Positions 2,544-39,723 of a stretch of DNA of 40,329 bases are shown here, piece by piece. Origin of the DNA: an uncultured Lachnospiraceae bacterium (GTDB lineage Bacteria > Bacillota > Clostridia > Lachnospirales > Lachnospiraceae); NCBI GenBank assembly GCA_902774725.1, contig CACYJP010000006.1, positions 1 to 40,329 on the forward strand, in the 5' to 3' direction. Under the pieces are notes generated by a model. It searched no databases. It had not been told where the DNA came from and worked only from the letters and a program-made list of their open reading frames with translations. The translations under genes and the position numbers were made by a program. Numbering within the stretch: the stretch's first letter is position 1; every line of letters starts with the position of its first letter.

Positions 2544-3305
2544 TTATTTACACATATTTTCCACATATTCGCGAAGCTTCTCCGGCGCATCCTTGCCATA
2601 CTCTGCCACTATTCTTACCATAGCGGAACCTACTATAGCACCGTCTGCAACCTCACACACCTTCTTTGCCTGCTCCGGTGTGCTGATTCCAAAGCCTACT
2701 GCTGCAGGTGTGTCAGTCACTTCCTTGATTGCCTTCATAATAGAACCAAGGTCAGTTTTTATCTCGCTTCTTACGCCTGTTACGCCAAGTGATGATACAA
2801 CATAGATGAAGCCCTTAGCCTGTGCAGCTATCTCCTTTATTCTGTTCTCACTTGTCGGAGCTATCATTGAGATGAAGTCCATACCGTACTTTTCAGCTGT
2901 CTCATCGAACTCGTGTCTCTCTTCAAAAGGACAATCCGGAATGATTATTCCGTCAGCTCCTGCCTCAGATGCATTCTTGAAGAAACGGTCTGTTCCGTAA
3001 TGGAAAACCGGATTTGCATATGTCATAAATACTATCGGAGTATCATAATCACGTCTTAACTCCTTCACCAGCTCAAACACCTTGTCAGTTGTCATTCCGC
3101 CACTGAGTGCTCTGATATCAGCCTCCTGAATAACAGGTCCTTCAGCTATAGGATCTGAAAACGGAATACCAACCTCTATCAGATCAGCTCCCGCATCTAT
3201 CACAGCCTTAAAGTTTGCAAGGCTTGTTTCATAGTCCGGATCTCCCGCGGTAAGAAATGCAACAAATGCCTTTTTATTTTCAAATGCTTTATATATCCTG
3301 CTCAT
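2544..3305 (-). CDS. trpA: Tryptophan synthase alpha subunit
   Basis: 253 residues, normal family length. It cleaves indole-3-glycerol phosphate to indole and glyceraldehyde 3-phosphate in the cytoplasm and passes indole through the tunnel to TrpB. The TIM-barrel landmarks are present: AFLTAGDP near the N-terminus, EVGIPFSDP with the catalytic Glu, SSLGVTGVR for phosphate binding and GFGIST near the end. The position of the catalytic Asp60 of the E. coli enzyme reads Glu here (SDPIAEGP instead of the common DPxADGP), a conservative change. It is the last gene of the trp operon, 58 nt after trpB. GACGAGG precedes the ATG. Confidence 0.97.
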   Translation of the reverse strand: MSRIYKAFENKKAFVAFLTAGDPDYETSLANFKAVIDAGADLIEVGIPFSDPIAEGPVIQEADIRALSGGMTTDKVFELVKELRRDYDTPIVFMTYANPVFHYGTDRFFKNASEAGADGIIIPDCPFEERHEFDETAEKYGMDFISMIAPTSENRIKEIAAQAKGFIYVVSSLGVTGVRSEIKTDLGSIMKAIKEVTDTPAAVGFGISTPEQAKKVCEVADGAIVGSAMVRIVAEYGKDAPEKLREYVENMCK

Positions 3306-3363
3306 ATCTATTCCTCGTCTTTCTGCGAATCTTCGTCTTTCCTATCATTTCTTATTCAGATAT

Positions 3364-4578
3364 CTATTCATATATATCAACGCCGCGATAACGTGCTATA
3401 GCAGCTACGTCCTTATCTCCACGACCTGATATAGTACAAACTATAATGCTGTCCTTTGGCATCTCAGGTGCTATCTTCAGGACATGCGCTACTGCATGGC
3501 TGCTCTCTATAGCAGGAATGATACCCTCTGTTCTTGAAAGGTATTCAAATGCACCTACTGCTTCTTCATCTGTGATAGGCACATACTCGGCTCTTCCGAT
3601 AGATGCAAGATATGCATGCTCAGGTCCGATTCCCGGATAATCAAGTCCGGCAGAAATAGAATAAACCGGAGCTATCTGTCCATACTCATCCTGACAGAAA
3701 AGTGATTTCATTCCGTGGAATATACCCTCTGTTCCATTTGCCATTGTTGCTGCATTTTTCGGATTATCTACTCCAAGGCCTGCTGCTTCGCATCCGATAA
3801 GCTTAACTCCATCATCTTTTATATACTCATAGAAGGATCCGATTGCATTACTTCCTCCACCGACACAGGCGATAACAACATCAGGAAGCTTTCCCTCTGC
3901 TTCAAGTATCTGTGCACGGCTCTCCTTACTGATAACAGACTGGAAGTCTCTTACAATAGTCGGGAAAGGATGTGGTCCCATAACCGAACCAAGTACATAG
4001 AGTGTATCATCAACTCTGCTTACCCATTCGCGCATCGCCTCATTTACTGCATCCTTAAGAACCTTTGTTCCTGTCTTAACAGCGTGAACCTTTGCACCGA
4101 GAAGCTCCATTCTGAAAACATTGAGTGCCTGTCTTATGGTATCCTCTTCTCCCATAAAGATCTCACACTCCATATCCATAAGTGCTGCAGCTGTAGCAGT
4201 TGCAACTCCGTGCTGTCCCGCTCCTGTCTCTGCAATAACTCTGGTCTTTCCCATTTTCTTTGCAAGAAGCACCTGACCCAGTACGTTATTTATCTTGTGT
4301 GAGCCTGTATGATTCAGGTCCTCTCTCTTAAGATATATCTTGGCTCCACCGAGATCCCTTGTCATCTTCTCAGCATAGTAAAGAAGTGAAGGACGACCTG
4401 CGTACTCGCGATTTAGCTTATCGAGCTCAGCTACAAATTCAGGATCATTCTTATAGTGCTCATAAGCCTCCTCCAGCTTATGTATCTCATTCATAAGAGT
4501 CTCAGGTATATACTGTCCACCGTACTCACCGAATCTTCCGTTTATTGCTTTTCCTAAATTATTATCCATATTATTCAT
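3364..4578 (-). CDS. trpB: Tryptophan synthase beta subunit
   Basis: 404 residues, full length. It is PLP-dependent and condenses indole with serine to give tryptophan. The PLP lysine lies in [10 protein letters not shown], the substrate loop is [10 protein letters not shown], the phosphate-binding glycines are [10 protein letters not shown] and the C-terminal signature is SGRGDKD. The start lies 3 nt after the trpF stop. ATG 4578 is used, and an in-frame ATG at 4569 is an alternative because the AGGA before 4578 lies very close. An imperfect 12-13 nt tandem duplication covers its stop codon (ATATGAATAG followed by ATATCTGAATAAG). Confidence 0.97.
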
Positions 4579-4581
4579 ATC

Positions 4582-5220
4582 CTAAGCCTTTCCTTTTCTT
4601 ACTATTTCTACAAAGCTTCTCATCTTATTTACATCCTTCAGCTTGTCCGTTTCAACTCCTGAGCTGACATCAACTCCGTAAGGCTGAAGAGTATTTACTG
4701 CCTCAGCTATATTTTGAACTCCAAGACCTCCTGCAAGGATATACGGTCTTTTTATTTCTCTTAATCGGTTCCAGTCGAAGGTTTTTCCCGAACCAGTTCC
4801 TGAGTCTACCAGAACCATGTCCGCTGAAGAATTATCTATCTCACTTACATTTCCGATTTTACTCATATTGAAGGCCTTTATGATTTTTTCAGAGTCAGCT
4901 GATTTTGCTTCATCCTCATTATCCGACGTAAGTCCTCTTAGCTTTTCGATATAGACCTCGTCCTCATCTCCGTGAAGCTGAGCTATGTCGATCACTCCCT
5001 CATTCAGGAGCTCAGCCACATAATTATAATCCTCATTTACAAAAACGCCAACTGCTTTTATCCTCGGGTCCAGCCTGCCCTTTAGCCTGACTGCCGTTTC
5101 CTTATCTACATATCTATGGCTGAAGTCTGCAAAGACAAATCCCACATAATCAGGGCATAACTCATTTACCGCTTCGATATCCTCTATTCTTTTTAAACCG
5201 CATATCTTGATTCTTGTCAC
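4582..5220 (-). CDS. trpF: Phosphoribosylanthranilate isomerase
   Basis: 212 residues. It performs the Amadori rearrangement of N-(5-phosphoribosyl)anthranilate to CdRP, the third step of tryptophan synthesis. The N-terminal KICGLKR carries the catalytic Cys, AQLHGDE is the central signature, and VDSGTGSGKTFDW carries the catalytic Asp and phosphate loop. A stretch at about residues 100-130, rich in Asp, Glu, Ser and Asn, is longer than in many relatives and looks like a surface insertion. The start codon is GTG at 5220, preceded by GAGGTGA. Upstream trpC ends 27 nt away and trpB follows after 3 nt. Confidence 0.95.
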   Translation of the reverse strand: MTRIKICGLKRIEDIEAVNELCPDYVGFVFADFSHRYVDKETAVRLKGRLDPRIKAVGVFVNEDYNYVAELLNEGVIDIAQLHGDEDEVYIEKLRGLTSDNEDEAKSADSEKIIKAFNMSKIGNVSEIDNSSADMVLVDSGTGSGKTFDWNRLREIKRPYILAGGLGVQNIAEAVNTLQPYGVDVSSGVETDKLKDVNKMRSFVEIVRKGKA

Positions 5221-5247
5221 AACGTCACCTCACAGTGCACGGTCCCA

Positions 5248-6030
5248 CTACGCATTCTTAAGCTCATGGATCAGCCTTGTTTTATCAGAGCTTCTCATAA
5301 GCATTTCACCGATAAGCACAGCGTCAGTTCCATTTTCCTTAAGAACCTTAACATCCTCCGGCTTTTCTATTCCGCTCTCAGATACAAAGATCACGTCATC
5401 AGGTACGAGCTTTCTGAGCTTCACGCTGTTATTTATATCTACTGTAAAGTCCTTCAGATTTCTATTGTTAACACCTACTATTCTTGCACCTGCCGCGAGG
5501 CATCTCTTCACCTCTTCCTCATCATGCGCTTCGAAGAGGCATGAAAGGCCGAGCCCCTCAGCTATTTCAAAATATTCTGCAAGCTCTGTATCACTCAGTA
5601 TCGCTGCAATAAGAAGTACTGCCGATGCACCCATCATCCTTGCCTGATATATCATATAAGGATCGATGGTAAAGTCCTTTCTCAGGACAGGCAGCTTTAT
5701 GCTTGATGCGATCTCCTGAAGATAAGCATCGCTTCCCTTAAATCTGTCAGGCTCCGTCAGACAGGATACAGCATCTGCACCCGCTGTCTCGTACTCCTTC
5801 GCTATTTCAAGAAATGGAAAGTCCTCTGCGATAACTCCCTTTGAAGGTGATGCCTTTTTCACCTCTGAAATGATTGAAAGGCCTTCCTTCGAAAGAGCCT
5901 CCTCAAAATTATAAGCTACCTCTCTGGCCGCAAGTATCTCTGCATCTCTTTTGATACTCTCAAGAGAGTATCCCTGCTTTTGAAGCTCTATTCTTTTTCT
6001 TGTAAGACTCGCTAATTCATCTAAAATCAT
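5248..6030 (-). CDS. trpC: Indole-3-glycerol phosphate synthase
   Basis: 260 residues, normal length. It closes the indole ring by decarboxylating CdRP. Typical landmarks are SEVKKASPSKG with a catalytic Lys, VLRKDF with the second catalytic Lys, VGVNNRNL with the Asn, and VSESGI. Its ATG overlaps the trpD stop by one base (TAATG), which suggests translational coupling, and AGAGGTAAG provides the ribosome site inside trpD. It is separate from trpF, whereas enteric bacteria have a TrpC-F fusion. Confidence 0.97.
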   Translation of the reverse strand: MILDELASLTRKRIELQKQGYSLESIKRDAEILAAREVAYNFEEALSKEGLSIISEVKKASPSKGVIAEDFPFLEIAKEYETAGADAVSCLTEPDRFKGSDAYLQEIASSIKLPVLRKDFTIDPYMIYQARMMGASAVLLIAAILSDTELAEYFEIAEGLGLSCLFEAHDEEEVKRCLAAGARIVGVNNRNLKDFTVDINNSVKLRKLVPDDVIFVSESGIEKPEDVKVLKENGTDAVLIGEMLMRSSDKTRLIHELKNA

Positions 6031-7049
6031 TATTTATTACTTACCTCTACGAATTTATTGAGTGTTTCAGTTGCTTTTCCGGATGCGATTATCTCCTTTG
6101 CAAGCTCGATTCCATCTTTCATTGAATCTGCCTTTCCACCGATATAGAGTGCAGCACCGGCATTCATAAGTGTAGCATCTCTCTTTGGTCCGGTCTCTTC
6201 TCCGCTGAGAATTCTTCTGGTGATTTCAGCATTTTCTTCCGGAAGTCCTCCAACAAGCTCTGACTTATCACAGGTCTTAAATCCAAAATCCTCCGGACGT
6301 ATAACTCTTATCTTATACCATCCGTCCTTTATCTCACAGATAGTTGTAGGTGAGCTGAGTGATATCTCATCCAGCTTGTCCTGACCAAATACTACCATTC
6401 CTCTTTTTACTCCAAGGTCTGCAAGAACCTGTGCAAGCGGTTCAACTAAGTACTCATCATATACTCCGAGAAGCATAAGACTTGGCCTTCCCGGATTTGT
6501 GAGTGGGCCGAGTATGTTAAATACTGTTCTGAAGCCGAGCTCCTTTCTGATGGCTCCTACGTACTTCATGGAAGTATGATACTTCTGCGCAAAGAAGAAG
6601 CACATGCCAACCTCGTTAAGGAGTTCTATACACTTATCCGGTTCCTGCTGGATATTTACGCCGAGTGCCTCAAGGCAGTCAGCAGTTCCGCACTTTGATG
6701 AAGCTGCTCTGTTTCCGTGCTTTGCAACCTTCATTCCACCTGCAGCAGCAATAAGAGCTGATGTTGTTGAGATATTAAAGCTCTGTGCATTATCTCCGCC
6801 TGTTCCTACTATTTCAAAGATCTCCATACCCGTATTAACAGGTGTAGCATGGTCTCTCATAGCTGCGGCACAGCCTGCTATCTCGTCCTTTGTCTCTGCC
6901 TTTGCACTCTTTGTTGAAAGAGCTGAAAGAAATGCAGCATTCTGAGTTGGAGATGTCTCACCACTCATTATCTCATTCATTACTGTGTATGCCTCATCAT
7001 ATGTAAGGTCCTGCTTGTTAACGATTTTTTCAATTGCTTCCTTGATCAT
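6030..7049 (-). CDS. trpD: Anthranilate phosphoribosyltransferase
   Basis: 339 residues from the chosen start, the usual family length. It transfers phosphoribose from PRPP to anthranilate. The PRPP site is seen as [15 protein letters not shown] and the following [18 protein letters not shown] 7049 (MIKEAIEK) is chosen because GGAGG lies 7 nt upstream. The frame stays open to 7079 but that start has no ribosome site. TrpD is a separate protein here, not fused to TrpG. It follows trpG by 37 nt. Confidence 0.96.
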
Positions 7050-7086
7050 TTTTTCTACCTCCATTACTACTTCGATCAATTATACT

Positions 7087-7602
7087 TTATATAATTCTCA
7101 TTCCGATAAAGTTAGATAACATCGTTTTACCTTCCGGTGTAAGTATTGACTCCGGGTGAAACTGAAGTCCGTATATCGGATAACTCTTATGCTTTACAGC
7201 CATTATCTCTCCGTCGTCATCTGCTACCGCTATCACCTCAAGCTCGTCCGGCAGAGTATCCTTCTTTGCTGAAAGTGAGTGATATCTTGCAACAGCAACC
7301 TTTAATTCGGTGTCGTCATCGGCACAACCTTTTATTCCCGCAAATATAGGATCATCCTTTTTCACACTGCATACTGACTGCTTTCCATGCATCAGTCTTG
7401 ACGCGTAGGTTACTGTCGCTCCAAATACCTCACATATAGACTGGTGTCCCGGTGAAAGTATTATGCACGCCGGCTTCAGTGCCTCTATCTCCTCAACGCT
7501 CAGCTCATCATTTCTGATAACCTTTATATCCGGTTCTATTTCTCCGACGAGCTGAAACAGGTTATATGAAAAGCTGTCATAATTATCTATCAATAAAACC
7601 AT
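7087..7602 (-). CDS. trpG: Anthranilate synthase glutaminase subunit, internally deleted, lacks the nucleophile Cys
   Basis: 171 residues against about 190-200 for the family. The N-terminus (LLIDNYDSFSYNLFQ), the central RLMHGK, RYHSL and the C-terminal His-Glu pair (LQFHPESILTPEG) are all normal. The block that should join LSPGP to GVCLGHQ is absent: ILSPG at residue 52 runs straight into HQSICEVFG. About 29 residues are missing, including the oxyanion strand and the catalytic Cys of the class I amidotransferase nucleophile elbow. The frame is preserved. Glutaminase activity should therefore be lost, leaving TrpE to work with free ammonia or a PabA-like subunit from elsewhere. The start at 7602 lies 4 nt after the trpE stop, with GGAAGG upstream. 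Confidence 0.9.
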   Translation of the reverse strand: MVLLIDNYDSFSYNLFQLVGEIEPDIKVIRNDELSVEEIEALKPACIILSPGHQSICEVFGATVTYASRLMHGKQSVCSVKKDDPIFAGIKGCADDDTELKVAVARYHSLSAKKDTLPDELEVIAVADDDGEIMAVKHKSYPIYGLQFHPESILTPEGKTMLSNFIGMRII

Positions 7603-7606
7603 ACTT

Positions 7607-9061
7607 CTACCTTCCTTCCGACTCCAGTGCATTCATAACAGCCTTCGCCTTGTTAATACACTCTACAAATTCCTTTTCAGGAACTGAGTCTGCAACTATT
7701 CCCGCACCACTTCTTACGAATACTCTTCCATTCTTCTTGTACGCGATCCTTATAGCTATGCAGGTATCCATATTTCCGGTGAAGTCGATATATCCGATCG
7801 CTCCGCCGTAGATACCTCTCTTATTATTCTCCAGCTCGTCGATCAGCTGACACGCTCTTATCTTAGGTGCACCTGAAAGCGTTCCTGCAGGAAGTACTGC
7901 TTCTATCGCATCCAGCGCGTCCTTATCCTCTCTTATCTCACCTCTCACCGTAGAACCGATATGCATGATGTGTGAGAACTTAAGCACATCCATATATCTC
8001 TCTACCTTGACTGTTCCGAAACGGCTCACTCTTCCTAGATCATTTCTTCCGAGATCCACAAGCATGTTATGCTCAGCCAGCTCCTTCTCATCTTGTAGCA
8101 GCTCAGCCTCAAGTGCTTCATCCTCCTTTGGATTCTTTCCCCTCGGCCTTGAGCCTGCAAGTGGAAATGTATGAAGTACGCCATCCTCCAGCTTTACCAA
8201 TGTCTCCGGAGAAGCACCCGCTACCTCAACATCCGTTCCTGAGAAGTAGAACATATATGGTGAAGGATTGATGGTCCTCAGCACCCTGTAAGTATTCAGA
8301 AGACTTCCCTCGAAAGGTGCCTCGATTCTATTTGAAAGAACTATCTGGAAGATATCTCCCTCAAAGATATGATGCTTACCCTTCTCAACCATCTCACAGT
8401 ATTCTTCCTTGCTGAAGAAAGGCTTAAACTCTCCTGAGACCTTGCCACTGTAATCCACCTTGCTTCTCTCTGAATTAAGAACATCTATGAGAGCCTTTAT
8501 ATCCTTCTCGGCTCTGGCATACTCAGTATCCAGCTCCTCGAGTTTTACATTTACAATAAGCACTATCTTCTGTCTCACATTATCAAAGGCGATAACCTTG
8601 TCGAAAAGCATCAGGTCTACATCCTTAAACTCTTCCTCATCCCTGACCTCAGTTCTCAGAGTCGGCTCACTGTACTTCAGATAATCATAGGAGAAGTAAC
8701 CCACAAGACCGCCGGTAAAAGGAGGCAAGAAGTCAAAGCTCGGACTTTTATACTTCGAAAGTATCTGTCTCAGATAGCCTGTCGGATCGTCCGTTTCAAA
8801 ACTGATATCTCCAACCTTCATCTTTCCGTCGATACACGTTATCTCAAGCTTCGGCTCAAATCCGAGAAATGTATATCTGCCCCAAGTCTGATCAGCCTGT
8901 GCTGATTCCAGCATATAGGTATGTGCCGAAACGCCCTTAAGTATCTTGAGCGCTTCTATCGGTGTTATGAAGTCTGAAAAGATCTCATAGCTAACCGGTG
9001 CAACTGTATACTTTTCTCTGTCAAGTTTTTTCAGTTCCTCGAGTGTCGGTCTCATTTCCAT
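7607..9061 (-). CDS. trpE: Anthranilate synthase component I
   Basis: 484 residues from ATG 9061, full length. It converts chorismate to anthranilate using ammonia supplied by TrpG. The N-terminal part carries the tryptophan feedback pocket (YMLESAQADQTWGRYTFLG). The C-terminal chorismate-binding domain is complete: IVLSNRIEAPF, GASPETLV, PLAGSRPRGKN, AEHNMLVDLGRNDLGR, LPAGTLSGAPKIRA, RGIYGGAIGY and VRSGAGIVADS. An in-frame ATG at 9070 exists, but AAAGGGG touches it, so 9061 is the better start. The gene ends 4 nt before trpG. It is the second gene of the operon, after the ACT gene. Confidence 0.97.
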   Translation of the reverse strand: MEMRPTLEELKKLDREKYTVAPVSYEIFSDFITPIEALKILKGVSAHTYMLESAQADQTWGRYTFLGFEPKLEITCIDGKMKVGDISFETDDPTGYLRQILSKYKSPSFDFLPPFTGGLVGYFSYDYLKYSEPTLRTEVRDEEEFKDVDLMLFDKVIAFDNVRQKIVLIVNVKLEELDTEYARAEKDIKALIDVLNSERSKVDYSGKVSGEFKPFFSKEEYCEMVEKGKHHIFEGDIFQIVLSNRIEAPFEGSLLNTYRVLRTINPSPYMFYFSGTDVEVAGASPETLVKLEDGVLHTFPLAGSRPRGKNPKEDEALEAELLQDEKELAEHNMLVDLGRNDLGRVSRFGTVKVERYMDVLKFSHIMHIGSTVRGEIREDKDALDAIEAVLPAGTLSGAPKIRACQLIDELENNKRGIYGGAIGYIDFTGNMDTCIAIRIAYKKNGRVFVRSGAGIVADSVPEKEFVECINKAKAVMNALESEGR

Positions 9062-9079
9062 CGCACTCATCCCCTTTCA

Positions 9080-9133
9080 CTACTTCCTGTACTACTTCCT
9101 ATATTTCTTCCTTTACTACTTCCTATATTTCTT
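9080..9133. repeat. 24-nt tandem repeat between the ACT gene and trpE
   Basis: A 20-nt unit beginning TACTACTTCCTATATT occurs at 9090-9109 and again at 9114-9133, a 24-nt period, with a partial third copy (CTACTTCCTGT) at 9080-9090. On the coding strand this is an A/G-rich run with several GGAAG motifs just upstream of trpE. It may simply be slippage, or it may offer repeated ribosome-binding sequence. Confidence 0.8.
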
Positions 9134-19622: not shown

Positions 19623-22600
19623 TCAAAAATCACCTAGTTTATAAGCTCTCCACTCAGGGTAGCTTACCTCCCCAAGCCTTGTTGAATATAATATCACATC
19701 TTTCACTCTGTGTCCCGTGAGATTCTCAAGTGTGGTTGCATAGAGATACATCTGCGACGCATATCTGTCGAGAAGCTCCTTAGGAGTCTGCACTGCATCC
19801 GTCTTATAATCAACAAGCACGATGTCTCCATCCTCATAGAAAAATGCATCAATTATTCCCTGCACTATTACGAAGTCATCCGAGCCTTCAGCTATATCCT
19901 TTCCGGTGATAAACTGCTTTTCTCTGTAAAGCTTGCCTTCAAGAAATGCATGTCTCATCCTCATGAAAAGCGAATTCTCATCCTCACTGTAGAAGTTTGC
20001 GAGAAATGCTTTGTTGATCATCGTCCTTTCTTCGTCTGAGTATCTTTCGTCACTGAGAATTCTTTCAAACTCGGCAATGAGATCATCTCTCGAGCTCACC
20101 CTTCCATAATCAAGTCTTTCAAATATCTCGTGGGTGATGGTTCCTCTCTTGGCTCCACCGGAAACCTCTTCGCCAAAAACCTTTTTACCGGAAGCCTTCT
20201 CATCTAAAACGTGACCATCCGTGATTATCTCATCTGAATCATCACGAATCTCCATATGGCTGTTCATTTCCATATGCTTTATCTCAGAGACGGAGCGTTT
20301 GGACTTTTCTCTGGTAGCCTTCTCAAATGGATACCTGTAATCATAAGGATTCGCGCCTGTCTCTTCCCCCTCTAAGCGCTCCACCTCTTCTTCAACCACC
20401 TCCCTGAGAGCCATTATATCCTTCGCATAATCAGCAGACTGTTTTCTGTATTTTTTATCATAGCTATCAGCCAGAGCTTCACCTTCAATTTCCTCTGTTA
20501 CCAGATAATCCTCTACATTTCCGGTCCTGAAGGCGAATCTCAGATAGGCCATAAGACTCTTATTAAGTATCATAAGCGGAGCCTCGCCCTTCTTATAGGT
20601 ACCTGTTATATAGAGCTTTTCCTTCGCTCTTGTCATGGCTACGTAAAGAAGCCTTGCCTCTTCAGCCATGGAGGCTTTATCAGAAAGAAGCTTGATGATC
20701 GACTTTCTTACACTCTGCTGTCTCAGCATTATGCCACTTTTCGAAACCTTAAGTCTGTCCATCGATATATAATAATCACTGTCTGAAACGATCGGCTTAC
20801 TCATGTCTCGAAGCATGAAGCCCTTACCCGTTCTCGCAACTATTACTATCGGATATTCAAGTCCCTTACTCTTATGGATACTTGTTATATGGACCATATT
20901 TTCCACATCGTCCATTATCTGCGCCTCAGAGAATTCCATTTCCTTCATGGCACATTTATCTATATATCTGATGAAGTCGAGCAATCCGACATTTCTTCCC
21001 GTCTCAAAGCTGAGCGCCCTGTATCTGAGAAGCTTCAGGTTCATTGCTCTTCGCCTTCCCTCCGGCATGGCAGCCACAAAGCAGTCATACTGAGTGTCAG
21101 CGATTATATGGTCAATAAGGGTTGCGATATCAATATATGGTCTGAGTCCGGACCAGCCGTCTATCATTTCAAAAACTCTGCCAAGCTTCTCGGCTATATC
21201 CATAAGCTCCGGCTCTTCAGTTCTATCCTTGTAGCCCTCACAGAAGTTTATACATTTGTCAGCCAGACTCATCTTCGGATCAGGAGACAGGCTAACGACT
21301 GTAGCAAGCTCTGAATCAGTAAGCCCTCCGATATTTGAAAGCAACACTGATGCAAGCGGGATATCCTGCTGGATGTTATCGATCACTCTGAGCACCGACA
21401 TGATAGTCATGACCTCAATCGCTTCGAAATAGCCGCTCGGATCATCAACAATGACAGGAATTCCCATCTTCTCATATATCCTGACCATAGGCGTGGAGCC
21501 CTTTACCGCCCTTTGAAGTATGACAATATCGCCGAATCTCGCCCTTCTGTATCTGGAGTTTTTCTCGCTCTCCGGCTTGTTAGGATTATAATTTTCATTC
21601 AGAACATAAACAGGCTCTTTTCCCTTATCCGGGTTGCCGTAGATGATTTCTCTTATTATCTCGCCGATCTTGATAGCCTCGAATTCATCATGCGTGAGTT
21701 CAAACTGCTTGATTCGTTTTTCAGCATCCTCTATCGGGTTCGGCTTATAATCATCCTTTATCAGGATCGGACCATCCTCCGGATCATGCTTTCCGACATC
21801 TATCATACAGACCTCAGGCTTACCGCCGACATTTATTCCCTCCGGCGCCTCAGGATAATTATCAAAATAAACCTCATCATCAGGTCGGTTCAGCTTAACA
21901 TCCTCGCTGTACTCGATTCCGCCAAATGTACGACGCATCACACTCTGCATTACATAGTTGGTTGCGTCAAGCACCTCTCCACGTGATCTATAGTTCATGT
22001 TCAGATTGATAAGCCTTCCGTGCTCATCCTTTCCGTACATGTCAGCCTTCTGATTGAACAGCTCAGGCTTGGCCATTCTGAAACGATAGATACTCTGCTT
22101 AACATCGCCGACCATAAATACATTTGCAGGATAGCCATCCTCATCATACCTGGCAACCGAGTTAAGTATACTCTCCTGAAGATCACTGCTGTCCTGATAC
22201 TCGTCTATGTAGATATACTTATACTGCCCGGACACTCGGCTTCCTACCTCAGTTCTTTCATTCTTCTCACTATCGAAAAGAATCCTGTAGGCAGCGTGCG
22301 CCACATCATTAAACTCGTATCTCTTCTGCTTTGTCTTCTCAGCCATAAGTTCACTTCTGAAGTCTCTTACAAGCTCGATCAGAGAGCGGATATATACAGA
22401 TGACTCCACCAGCTCATCCTTAATATCATCCTCCGTATAGACAGTTTTAAATACTCCCTTTATAGCCTCCCTGTCAGCCTTCAGCTGATCTATCTGATCC
22501 TGATCATCGATTATCTCACCGAGCTTCTTCGCAGGAAACTGAGGCCATCTATCCGGAAGTGCATCCTTCCTTCCCACCAGAGTATCGGCGTTTATAAAGG

Positions 22601-29851: not shown

Positions 29852-30480
29852 CTAAATCTCTTCAGATCCTCTTTATTAACAAGAACAAGAAGCTCGTTAT
29901 CTTCCTTAAGCGGTTCCTTCGGATCTACAAATGATTTAAGCTCGCCACCTTCTCTTATTGCTACAACATTTGCACGATATTTCTCACGGATATTAAGGTC
30001 TATCAGGTTCTTGCCAATCCATTCCTTCTTTGGCGCCATCTCAAGTATACATATCTTGTCATCTATCTCAAAGAATTCAAGGAAGGAATCTGACATAAGC
30101 TTTCTTGCTGTACGAAGTCCGGTTTCCTCTTCCGGATATATAACCTTGTCCGCTCCGACTTTTTCAAGTACGCTTCCCATTCTTACATCTGCCGCTTTTG
30201 CAAGTACATAAGGAACACCTATTTCCTTAGCAGCCATTATGCTCATGATACTTGCTGTCAGATCGGAACCCATAGCTACAACAACAGCATCCATTCCCTC
30301 GAGACCTATCCCCTTAAGGGCCTCTACATCCTTAAGATCAGCCTCTATAGCATAAGTTACAAATGGCGACATCTTTTCAAGCACCTCTGTACTTGCATCG
30401 ACTACCATCACCTCTGCTCCCATATCAGAGAGACTGAGTGCCAGTTTCTTTCCAAATCTTCCTATACCAAGAACAGCAAT
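29848..30480 (-). CDS. ktrA: Ktr-type potassium uptake regulatory subunit (RCK), probable ATT start
   Basis: 210 residues from ATT 30480. It is a cytoplasmic RCK protein that gates the KtrB channel. The N-terminal Rossmann motif AVLGIGRFGKKLALSLSDMGA binds nucleotide and can only be translated if initiation lies upstream of the first ATG (30423). No ATG, GTG or TTG lies between 30423 and the in-frame stop at 30498-30496. ATT at 30480 has AAGGGG 7 nt upstream and is the best choice. A TTA at 30495 with GGAGG upstream is less likely. The RCK_C domain (EMAPKKEWIGKNLIDLNIRE) is complete, ending ELLVLVNKEDLKRFR. It follows ktrB by 55 nt. Confidence 0.85.
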   Translation of the reverse strand: MAVLGIGRFGKKLALSLSDMGAEVMVVDASTEVLEKMSPFVTYAIEADLKDVEALKGIGLEGMDAVVVAMGSDLTASIMSIMAAKEIGVPYVLAKAADVRMGSVLEKVGADKVIYPEEETGLRTARKLMSDSFLEFFEIDDKICILEMAPKKEWIGKNLIDLNIREKYRANVVAIREGGELKSFVDPKEPLKEDNELLVLVNKEDLKRFR

Positions 30481-30519
30481 TGATTTTCCCCTTAATTATT
30501 AACCTCCGTATATTCATAA

Positions 30520-31909: not shown

Positions 31910-33324
31910 GTACTAATAGAAAACATTATAAGTACCGGGAAGAGTTCCAGTCTTCCTGCAATCATATCAAAGATCAGAACCCATTTCGAAAGGATGCTGT
32001 AATCAGCATAATGTCCTGTAGGTCCTACAAGCTCCAGACCCGGTCCTATGTTGTTGATCGTTGCGGCAACCGATGTAAAGGTTGTCGTCAGATCAAATCC
32101 ATCGAAGCTTATTATAAAGAACGATGTTACAAAAATAAAAATATATGCCATCAGAAAAACATTTGTCGTTCTGAGTGTATCTCTGTTTACAGACTTTCCG
32201 TCCAGTCTGATATTTCTTACTGATGACGGATGTATGTAGCTCTGTATCTCCCTTACTACCTGCTTGAAATAAAGTATAACTCGGGAAACCTTGAGTCCGC
32301 CTCCCGTACTTCCGGCGCAGGCACCTATAAACATTACAAGTACAAGTATACCCTTTGGCATCGTCGTCCACAGGTTAAAGTCCACCGTCGCAAAACCGGT
32401 TGTAGTCATGATAGACGCAACCTGGAAGGATGCATGATGGAAGGAACCGCCAAAGCTTTCTCCTACTGTTCCCAGCGTTACAATAATTGAAGCTATAAAG
32501 AATATAGACAGATATGTGATTACCTCTTCAAGCTTAAAGAGACTCTTAAACTTTCTTATCAGAATAAGGAAATAAGCATTAAAGTTTATTCCGAACATAA
32601 CCATTCCGATCGTAATGATCGTCTGACACGTAGAATTATAGCTGGCGATACTGTCCGACTTTACACCAAATCCACCGGTTCCCGCAGTACCAAAGGATAT
32701 GCAGGCACTGTCAAATGCAGGCATGCCGGCAATAATGAGTGCAATTATCAGAATAATTGTCATAGTTGTGTAGATGGCATAAAGAGTGAGTGCAGTCTCT
32801 CTTACCTTTGGAACCATTTTTTCTACTGATGGTCCCGGAGACTCAGCCTTCATTATGTTCATCTCATCAGCACTGGACTGAACAAATATCAACATGAAAA
32901 CCAGGATACCCATTCCACCTATCCAGTGAGTAAAGCTTCTCCAGAAAAGAAGACACCTGGGAAGTATTTCTACATTTGGAAGAATGCTCGCTCCGGTTGT
33001 TGTGAAGCCCGAAGATGTCTCAAACATAGCATCCGTAAAGCTTGGAATGTATCCTGATATACAAAACGGAATCGCTCCTATAGCACTAAACACAAGCCAC
33101 GCAAGGGCTGTGATCACAAAGCCTTCCTTTGCTCTTATCCTTGAGTTCTTTGTAGGAATCAGTCTTATAAGACTTCCCAGGATTATTGAGCCACCGGCAG
33201 TTACTGCCAGATAAATAAAGCTTTTTTCCGAAAAATAAAGTCCAAGCATCGTGGGCAGTATTAAAAGAATTCCTTCGAGCTGTATGAGCTTTCCTAGCAT
33301 TTTTAAAATGATTCTGTTATTCAT
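31894..33324 (-). CDS. trkH: Trk-type potassium transporter membrane subunit
   Basis: 476 residues with about ten to twelve membrane segments. TrkH signatures are ETSSGFTTTGAS in the first pore loop, RSFTHWIGGMGILVF, GTAGTGGFGVKS in the second, IMTTTGFATVDF in the third, GACAGSTGGGLKVSR as gating loop and INNIGPGLELVGP in the fourth. Partner of TrkA, which is encoded 12 nt upstream. It is distinct from the KtrB paralogue that follows and overlaps it. Confidence 0.95.
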   Translation of the reverse strand: MNNRIILKMLGKLIQLEGILLILPTMLGLYFSEKSFIYLAVTAGGSIILGSLIRLIPTKNSRIRAKEGFVITALAWLVFSAIGAIPFCISGYIPSFTDAMFETSSGFTTTGASILPNVEILPRCLLFWRSFTHWIGGMGILVFMLIFVQSSADEMNIMKAESPGPSVEKMVPKVRETALTLYAIYTTMTIILIIALIIAGMPAFDSACISFGTAGTGGFGVKSDSIASYNSTCQTIITIGMVMFGINFNAYFLILIRKFKSLFKLEEVITYLSIFFIASIIVTLGTVGESFGGSFHHASFQVASIMTTTGFATVDFNLWTTMPKGILVLVMFIGACAGSTGGGLKVSRVILYFKQVVREIQSYIHPSSVRNIRLDGKSVNRDTLRTTNVFLMAYIFIFVTSFFIISFDGFDLTTTFTSVAATINNIGPGLELVGPTGHYADYSILSKWVLIFDMIAGRLELFPVLIMFSISTWRKK

Positions 33325-37697: not shown

Positions 37698-39723
37698 CTA
37701 CTCTTTTGCCTTCGCTTTAGCCTTCGGTTTCTTTTCATAAAACGGTTTTGTCTTATCAAAAACATAGTGCATCTGATTTTGATTCTTCACACTCTTCACC
37801 GCATTTGTATACTTAACAACATAATCCGACAGCTTACTCATATACTCTTCCTCGGAAATGCTTCCATCAGCAACTCCGGCAAGTCCTTTTTCCCAGCTTG
37901 CAGTAAGATCCGCTCTGAGAAGACCGTTAATTGAGTAAAGAACAACATCATATATGATTTCACCGAGGAAGCATGGTGTCAGTACCTGAGTCTTCTTATT
38001 CAGACTTATGTACTTATTATTTACCAGCTTTGTTATTATAGCATCTCTTGTAGCAGATGTCCCGATTCCGCTTCCCTTTATCTGTTCACGTAGCTCTTCA
38101 TCCTCAATCAGCTGTCCTGCATTTTCCATTGCAAGGATCATAGAACCTGATGTATATCTCTTCGGAGGATTGGTCTTTCCCTCCTTTATTTCAAAGCCGT
38201 TACAGGAAAGGACGTCTCCCTTTTTCAGCTTGGAAACATACTCGATAACCTCTTCACTCGCTATCTGTTCACCCTCTGAATCCTGTCCGCTTCCATCTGC
38301 TGAGTCCGACTTCTTACCTGCCCCATCAGAATTACCGGTCTCTTCCTTATCCGATTTCTTCTTTCCGAAGTTCGTGTCTGCAACCTGCAGATATCCCGGT
38401 TTTACCAGAAGCTTAAATGATGCACTCAGCTCTTCTGTTTTTCTTTCAAGAGCTATATTTATCTTCTGATACTGTGCAGGAGGATAAAAGATGGAGACGA
38501 ACCTCCTCGCGATCACCTCATATACGGTCGTTAACATACTTCGACTTTGCTATTCCCTTATAGCCTTCCTGATTTATTATATTCTGAGCGAATGGTGCAA
38601 CCTTCTGATAATTGCATAACCCTCTCAGATTCTTGTCAATTTCTTTTGCTATTGCAGTAGAAAGCACTCTGGCATCTGTTCTCGGATAAGTAACAAGCTT
38701 TTTCTCATAAAGCTCCTGTACTATATTCAGAGTTTCTGTAGGGCTTATCTTGAACATCCTTGAACAGTCATTCTGAAGCTCCGCCAGATTGTACAGCATC
38801 GGCGGATTCTTTTTCTCCGTCTTCTTAGTCATGCTCTTTATCTTCATCTCAACAGGAGTCGGATCCGACAGATACTCTATCAGTTCCTCAGCATCCTTCT
38901 TTTCCTTAAATCCATTTTCCTTATAGAGCTTTGGGCTTCCCTCATACTTACTGCCCTTAACCGCTTTCCACTCAGCATTAAATAGAGTTGTTTCATCGGC
39001 CTCATCCTTTTTCTTTCCTATAAGTCCGACAACTCTGTAAAATGGAGTCGACACGAACTCCCTTATCTCTCGTTCTCTCTTTACTATCATTCCGAGCACA
39101 CAGGTCATTACACGACCTACGGCTATTACGCATTTGTCTGTTCCGAGATACTGTTTTATAGGATATGAGTATTTCAGAGTCAGTGCTCTGGAGAAATTGA
39201 TTCCCATCAGATAGTCTTCCTTCGCACGGAGATAGGCTGAGCAGCTGAGGTTATCATACTCTGAAAGAGGCTTTGCTTCGTTTATTCCTCTGAGAATCTC
39301 CTCCTCAGTCTGTGAATCGATCCAGACTCTTCTTTTATCCTTGCTATCCGGAACCCTTGCCTGATTATCTACCAGCCTGTAGATATACTCTCCTTCGCGT
39401 CCCGAGTCAGTGCATACATAGATAGTCTCAACGTCATCCCTGTTAAGAAGACCACTCACTATCTTGAACTGCTTGCTCACAGCAGGTATGACCTCGTATT
39501 TATAGGTCTCAGGGATAAAAGGTATCGTATCCATGTTCCACCTTTTCAGGTTCGGATCATATGCATCGGGATAGCTCATCCCAACCAGATGTCCGACACA
39601 CCAGGTCACTATGTAGTTTTCATCCTCAAGATAGCCGTCCTTTCTTGCGCCCTTGATCTTAAGGGCCTCCGCGAACTGCTGGGCAACCGAGGGCTTCTCT
39701 GCTATAAAAAGTTTCTTTGCCAT
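37698..39723 (-). pseudogene. topB: DNA topoisomerase III, interrupted by a frame-shifting internal loss
   Basis: The first part (39723-38518, 401 codons) is a normal type IA topoisomerase: KLFIAEKPSVAQQF, TDSGREGEYIYRL, and the catalytic Tyr in LVTYPRTDARVLS. It ends KSKYVNDRI-stop. The second part continues in another frame from about 38537 to 37698 with TTVYEVIARRFVSIFYPPAQ, GSGIGTSATRDAIITKL and a lysine-rich tail. The conserved block that normally joins them (a DHxAIIPT motif and roughly 25 residues) is absent, and the frames differ. Both parts together are near 670 codons, close to full length. It should be inactive as read, unless the reading is an error. AGGGAGA precedes the ATG. Confidence 0.9.

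Follow-up and report, generated by a model that had tools for sequence, protein, structure and literature searches.

The trp operon and its shortened trpG

The window, that is, the whole stretch of DNA analysed (40,329 bases), is one entire contig (C6) of a draft genome made up of 201 contigs with a completeness of 91.85%, and it contains no N characters. It carries on its minus strand a trp operon in which trpE and trpG are followed by trpD, trpC, trpF, trpB and trpA (Table 1); the genes were named by homology and by our own reading. In the minus-strand translation of trpG, the segment ILSPG (residues 48-52) stands immediately before HQSICEVFG. The DNA at this junction is TCACCGGGACACCAGTCTATATGT (positions 7455-7432) and the protein across it reads CIILSPGHQSICEVFG. 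Compared with its relatives, the protein lacks 29 residues (87 nt) at this point, among them the catalytic cysteine, as the first-pass annotation had described. That annotation was equally right about the open reading frame and the normal His-Glu pair, H149 and E151 being found within the motif QFHPES. Among the downstream genes, from trpD to trpA, there is no gap of at least 6 aa common to more than two of the compared relatives.

Table 1. Positions in the window of the trp genes, the trpG junction and the two parts of topB
Feature	Position	Strand	Description
trpG	7087..7602	-	171 aa and stop; 29 codons fewer than relatives
trpG junction, S50-P51-G52/H53-Q54 (SPG to HQ)	7432..7455	-	relatives have 28-33 extra residues including the catalytic Cys
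TrpG His149-Pro150-Glu151	7150..7158	-	catalytic His and Glu retained; invariant in an alignment of 36
trpE	7607..9070	-	487 aa; whole; partner subunit; directly upstream of trpG
trpD, trpC, trpF, trpB, trpA	2544..7079	-	operon genes downstream of trpG
topB (DNA topoisomerase III), first part	38524..39723	-	ends in ...KYVNDR ahead of the lost stretch
topB, second part	37698..38537	-	other frame; about 83 nt gone at about 38525/38526 (ITDHYAIIPTG block)

The short protein is still recognised as a member of its family. It matches TIGR00566 with 147.4 bits (cut-off 121.05) and PF00117 with 121.5 bits (cut-off 22.8), each time in two stretches of which the first ends and the second begins at the junction, and its best matches among solved structures are divided in the same way. 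The curated cut-off is thus exceeded, the partner TrpE is encoded next to it and the catalytic His and Glu are present; the nucleophile elbow with the catalytic Cys (G-x-C-x-G) is absent. In an AlphaFold2 model of the short TrpG (pLDDT 90.5, pTM 0.85, such confidence being no measure of stability), strand 46-50 is joined directly to helix 53-59. The block present in the model of an intact relative (L038; pLDDT 92.1, pTM 0.90) consists of helix 62-69, strand 75-78 and Cys79. The residue numbers of the PabA taken here as a reference are presumably those of the E. coli enzyme. In the available part of its description, C79, H168 and E170 form the catalytic triad, and the oxyanion hole involves G52 and L80 (PMC7617670). 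Judged by its sequence, the short TrpG is thus without a nucleophile and has also lost the mobile loop that follows G52 and one of the two oxyanion residues.

The missing block among relatives

The block between SPG and HQ was found in all the related loci compared. It comprises 29 residues in 106 of the 109 loci, 28 in two (L085 and L088) and 33 in one (L067), and it ends in G-x-C-x-G in 109/109, a motif that was required in both runs of the search, the second of which used the TrpG N-terminus as an anchor. The 109 loci are the sum of two sets (29 and 80) and some genomes occur in both. An extra block with the Cys motif in relatives had been named in the first-pass annotation as a possible refutation, and it is indeed what the related loci display. 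The two ends of the block share 4-5 nt, in the same register, in 45 of the 109 relatives and 1 nt in the other 64. If the short gene were a variant of the lineage, the same junction would be expected in an independent genome; a degenerate junction pattern retrieved it from none of the 60 other genomes of the genus and none of the 390 other genomes of a sample of the class, two sets that hold one genome per species and thus leave strains of the same species outside their scope. This pattern is blind to whether a given genome has trpG. TrpG was matched in 34 of 36 other genomes of the genus, with no match in the remaining two (G014 and G023).

A slow decay of trpG was considered and set aside. 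Among the columns otherwise invariant in all loci of the genus, changes in the present sequence amount to 0/65 in TrpG, 0/159 in TrpE and 0/141 in TrpD, and in the nearer clade to 0/78, 0/181 and 1/248, respectively; the test is weak, as the median change in the other sequences is also 0 to 0.004, and it excludes marked decay only. On these sequence comparisons, the loss would be recent, or exist only in the assembly, or leave a function under constraint. A real deletion, if very recent, would be free of decay as well, so the invariant columns discriminate weakly between these options.

Backup genes and partner enzymes

The first-pass annotation had proposed a PabA-like partner as one way to live with the gap, together with a search for a second pabA or trpG. 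Searches of the draft (91.85% complete) yielded neither a further TrpG/PabA nor a PabB; TrpE is the sole chorismate-binding enzyme found in it, and this proposal is left unsupported. Nor did the block turn up at another place in the draft: with an intact relative's TrpG as the query, the matches were the two halves of the short trpG and weak matches on two other contigs (C107 and C24). The other class-I amidotransferases evaluated as possible backups were read as CarA (C107), PyrG (C65, a frame truncated by the contig end), HisH (C130, adjoining hisF) and a GatD-like protein (C29), names that come from reading the listed frames, with CarA and the C130 protein also scanned. The one on C24 is probably GuaA, to go by the position of the match and the length of the frame. 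A plasmid copy of the region was also discarded, window positions 5590-9102 having no match in the plasmid collection ('near' mode). Because the draft is incomplete, the absence of a backup TrpG, PabA or PabB from it is not proof.

Further losses in the same draft

If the 87 nt had been lost in assembly, further losses of similar size would be expected in the same draft, and two were found. The topB gene, 31 kb from trpG on the same contig, has lost a net 83 nt, including the conserved ITDHYAIIPTG block, and the resulting frameshift divides it between two frames. The second frame carries VYEVIARRF, and 1 nt lies between VND and VY versus 28 codons in the seven relatives inspected (7/7). Among nine other genomes, topB is an open frame of 690-736 aa in eight and is cut by contig ends in the ninth (G026). 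The draft also contains a second topoisomerase-like frame of 729 aa, 39% identical (G000:C192, 289-1368). The other loss amounts to about 58 nt, or some 18 residues, and shifts the frame of a nitroreductase-like gene on contig C9 (L140, about 1021-1586, with the break at about 1095); it was detected with one comparator, and the family name is our own reading.

These losses come from a sample of 440 kb of the draft (the window and 20 pieces of 20 kb), which was compared with 2.4 of the 3.19 Mb of a single-contig genome of the same genus, 10,000 of the compared bases being N. The comparison covered 233 genes (71,765 aa), with topB and the nitroreductase as the only frame-changing losses; the reverse comparison (191 genes, 64,670 aa) yielded four in-frame gaps and one frame change of 1 nt. 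Frame-breaking losses of more than 20 nt thus number two in the draft versus none in the single-contig genome. The window accounts for 29 of the 233 genes, and the 204 outside the trpG/topB contig contain one loss. Before filtering, gaps of at least 12 aa were about as numerous in the draft (16) as in the reverse direction (15). On visual inspection, those of the draft other than trpG and topB were discounted because the sequence was of low complexity or matched poorly; among them are gaps in AddA (17 aa, window position 19904) and TrkH (16 aa, window position 32436). The in-frame gaps of the draft that passed the flank filter are those of trpG (29 aa), L136 (28 aa), L142 (21 aa) and L144 (18 aa), of which the last three were judged by eye, against one comparator, to lie in variable or low-complexity sequence. 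A stop falls inside the best match of 8 of the 233 genes, in five of them within 12 columns of an end. Away from the match ends it was also observed in L134 and L140, and in L150, where two complete neighbouring frames were recognised instead of a break. A separate oddity of the window is a TrkA-like gene on the minus strand (about 30460-30500) whose start region, GIGRFG, is in frame with no ATG, GTG or TTG before it; judging from the bases, this could reflect a rare start codon or an error of one base.

Losses in other draft genomes

The control took 100 proteins encoded at 10 isolate loci as queries against 80 named loci of other genomes (912 kb), a comparison covering 153,957 aa positions. 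These loci had been picked by their trpG and are uninformative on losses in that gene. Breaks were counted when backed by at least three queries, and losses when they measured 20-120 nt. Three losses fall in this range: about 91 nt in trpE of L070 (at about 5090; 10 queries), about 83 nt in trpD of L071 (at about 2989; seven queries) and about 29 nt in trpC of L039 (at about 8048; three queries). The L039 loss appears in two rows, of which the one with three queries was counted, and other queries put it at 35-44 nt. All three break the frame. Two further breaks lie outside the counted range, namely a loss of 5 nt in trpE of L067 (at about 2791) and, in trpD of L115 (at about 3504), an N between repeated flanks with a gain of 76 nt. 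All five broken loci belong to metagenome assemblies, as their titles or names (RUG or mag) indicate, and there are no breaks in the 10 isolate loci. Five in-frame rows (L047, L069, L087, L089 and L097) were dropped, as they reflect an insertion in the sole query L057. The losses of 20-120 nt affect 3 of the 11 RUG-series loci (L039, L070 and L071; Tb.RUG.262 was left out of the count) versus 0 of the 69 others (p 0.002, with a grouping made post hoc). According to the available part of its description, idba_ud was used on the single samples of the first RUG set and MEGAHIT on the co-assembly (PMC5830445). The corresponding excerpt for the second set names MEGAHIT, gives the same option string at the single-sample step and has IDBA-UD in its reference list (PMC6785717).

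Origin of the trpG gap

Several scenarios may explain the junction. The first-pass annotation had left the choice between a glutaminase-dead TrpG and an 87-nt stretch lost in assembly, and of these the second is the better supported. We consider it probable that the 87 nt were lost in assembly and that the trpG of the organism is intact. In that case, stretches of tens of bases would have been dropped from conserved genes at several sites of a fragmented draft, either in assembly or during library making. The trpG loss, being divisible by three, would have left the frame open, while those of topB and the nitroreductase, which are not, would have made their genes look broken. The organism itself would make an ordinary TrpG that passes ammonia from glutamine to TrpE. 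Assembly is the best explanation because several clean losses occur in one draft, there is no further sign of decay, and similar losses exist in other metagenome-assembled genomes; the absence of the block and the uniqueness of the junction among the searched genomes point the same way. Nevertheless, an assembler working with k-mers would need some reads that span the junction, which counts against a loss in assembly. Moreover, the topB and trpG losses share one contig and the nitroreductase loss comes from one comparator, and the trpG junction could stem from slippage between the short repeats seen in 45 of the 109 relatives.

This last point is also where a real deletion finds its footing. 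The sampled strain may have undergone a recent in-frame deletion through such slippage, leaving it with a glutaminase-dead TrpG, a scenario that we regard as unlikely. The open frame, the clean junction, the 4-5 nt common to both ends and the negative search of the draft for another trpG or pabA all agree with it, and TrpE alone can use ammonia, as stated in the part of PMC10464499 available to us. It retains weight because the junction is possible between the repeats and because the evidence consists of assembled sequence. Yet topB (83 nt) and the nitroreductase (58 nt) would then need recent deletions of their own, or some other cause for their losses, and this scenario also meets similar losses in unrelated metagenome-assembled genomes and a junction that recurs in 0/60 genomes of the genus and 0/390 of the class sample. 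Under a real deletion the strain could not use glutamine for this step; its TrpE could make anthranilate from free ammonia, and the strain would rely on either ammonia or tryptophan. That such a deletion has been kept, with a glutaminase-dead TrpG capping TrpE, its strand 46-50 leading directly into the nucleophile helix, Ser50 in the place of the Cys and an anthranilate synthase using the ammonia of an ammonia-rich habitat, is highly improbable. The molecular version of this proposal, a short TrpG that still folds and caps TrpE, seems to us hardly credible at all. In its favour, SPGHQ is in register with CLGHQ, which puts Ser50 opposite Cys79, the AlphaFold2 scores are close to those of the intact relative, and the invariant columns outside the block are unchanged. 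However, helix 62-69, strand 75-78, the Cys and the equivalent of the oxyanion-hole residue L80 of PabA are gone, 35 of the 36 aligned proteins are intact, and none of the other genomes searched has the junction. The retention of His149 and Glu151 would also be unexpected after a long life without the nucleophile.

Implications and comparison with known systems

If the preferred reading, a loss in assembly, is correct, the trpG gap has little biological import and is mainly a useful warning. When a draft genome loses bases in frame, the gene is still called and still clears family thresholds, as with TIGR00566 here, and its product then looks like an enzyme with a dead active site. Where a draft of this kind seems to lack a catalytic motif, the reads should be consulted before biological claims are made or an auxotrophy is predicted. 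If instead the deletion were real, it would provide a natural case of an anthranilate synthase without its glutaminase; the results listed by our literature searches included no report of a TrpG without the Cys.

The losses in L070, L071 and L039 resemble that of trpG in that tens of bases are gone from inside a conserved gene with well conserved flanks, but they break the frame, whereas the trpG loss is divisible by three. Outside the gap, the short TrpG is like the TrpG/PabA class-I amidotransferases (TIGR00566; PF00117; 6qur, 8rp0, 8rp1, 1qdl_B and 1i7q_B), with the same His-Glu pair and the same adjacency to trpE; what sets it apart is the absence of 29 residues and, with them, of a core strand, the catalytic Cys and one residue of the oxyanion hole. 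Mammalian carbamoyl-phosphate synthetase I has a class-I amidotransferase domain without the Cys and is used with free ammonia. Unlike the short TrpG, that domain has one residue replaced and is otherwise complete.
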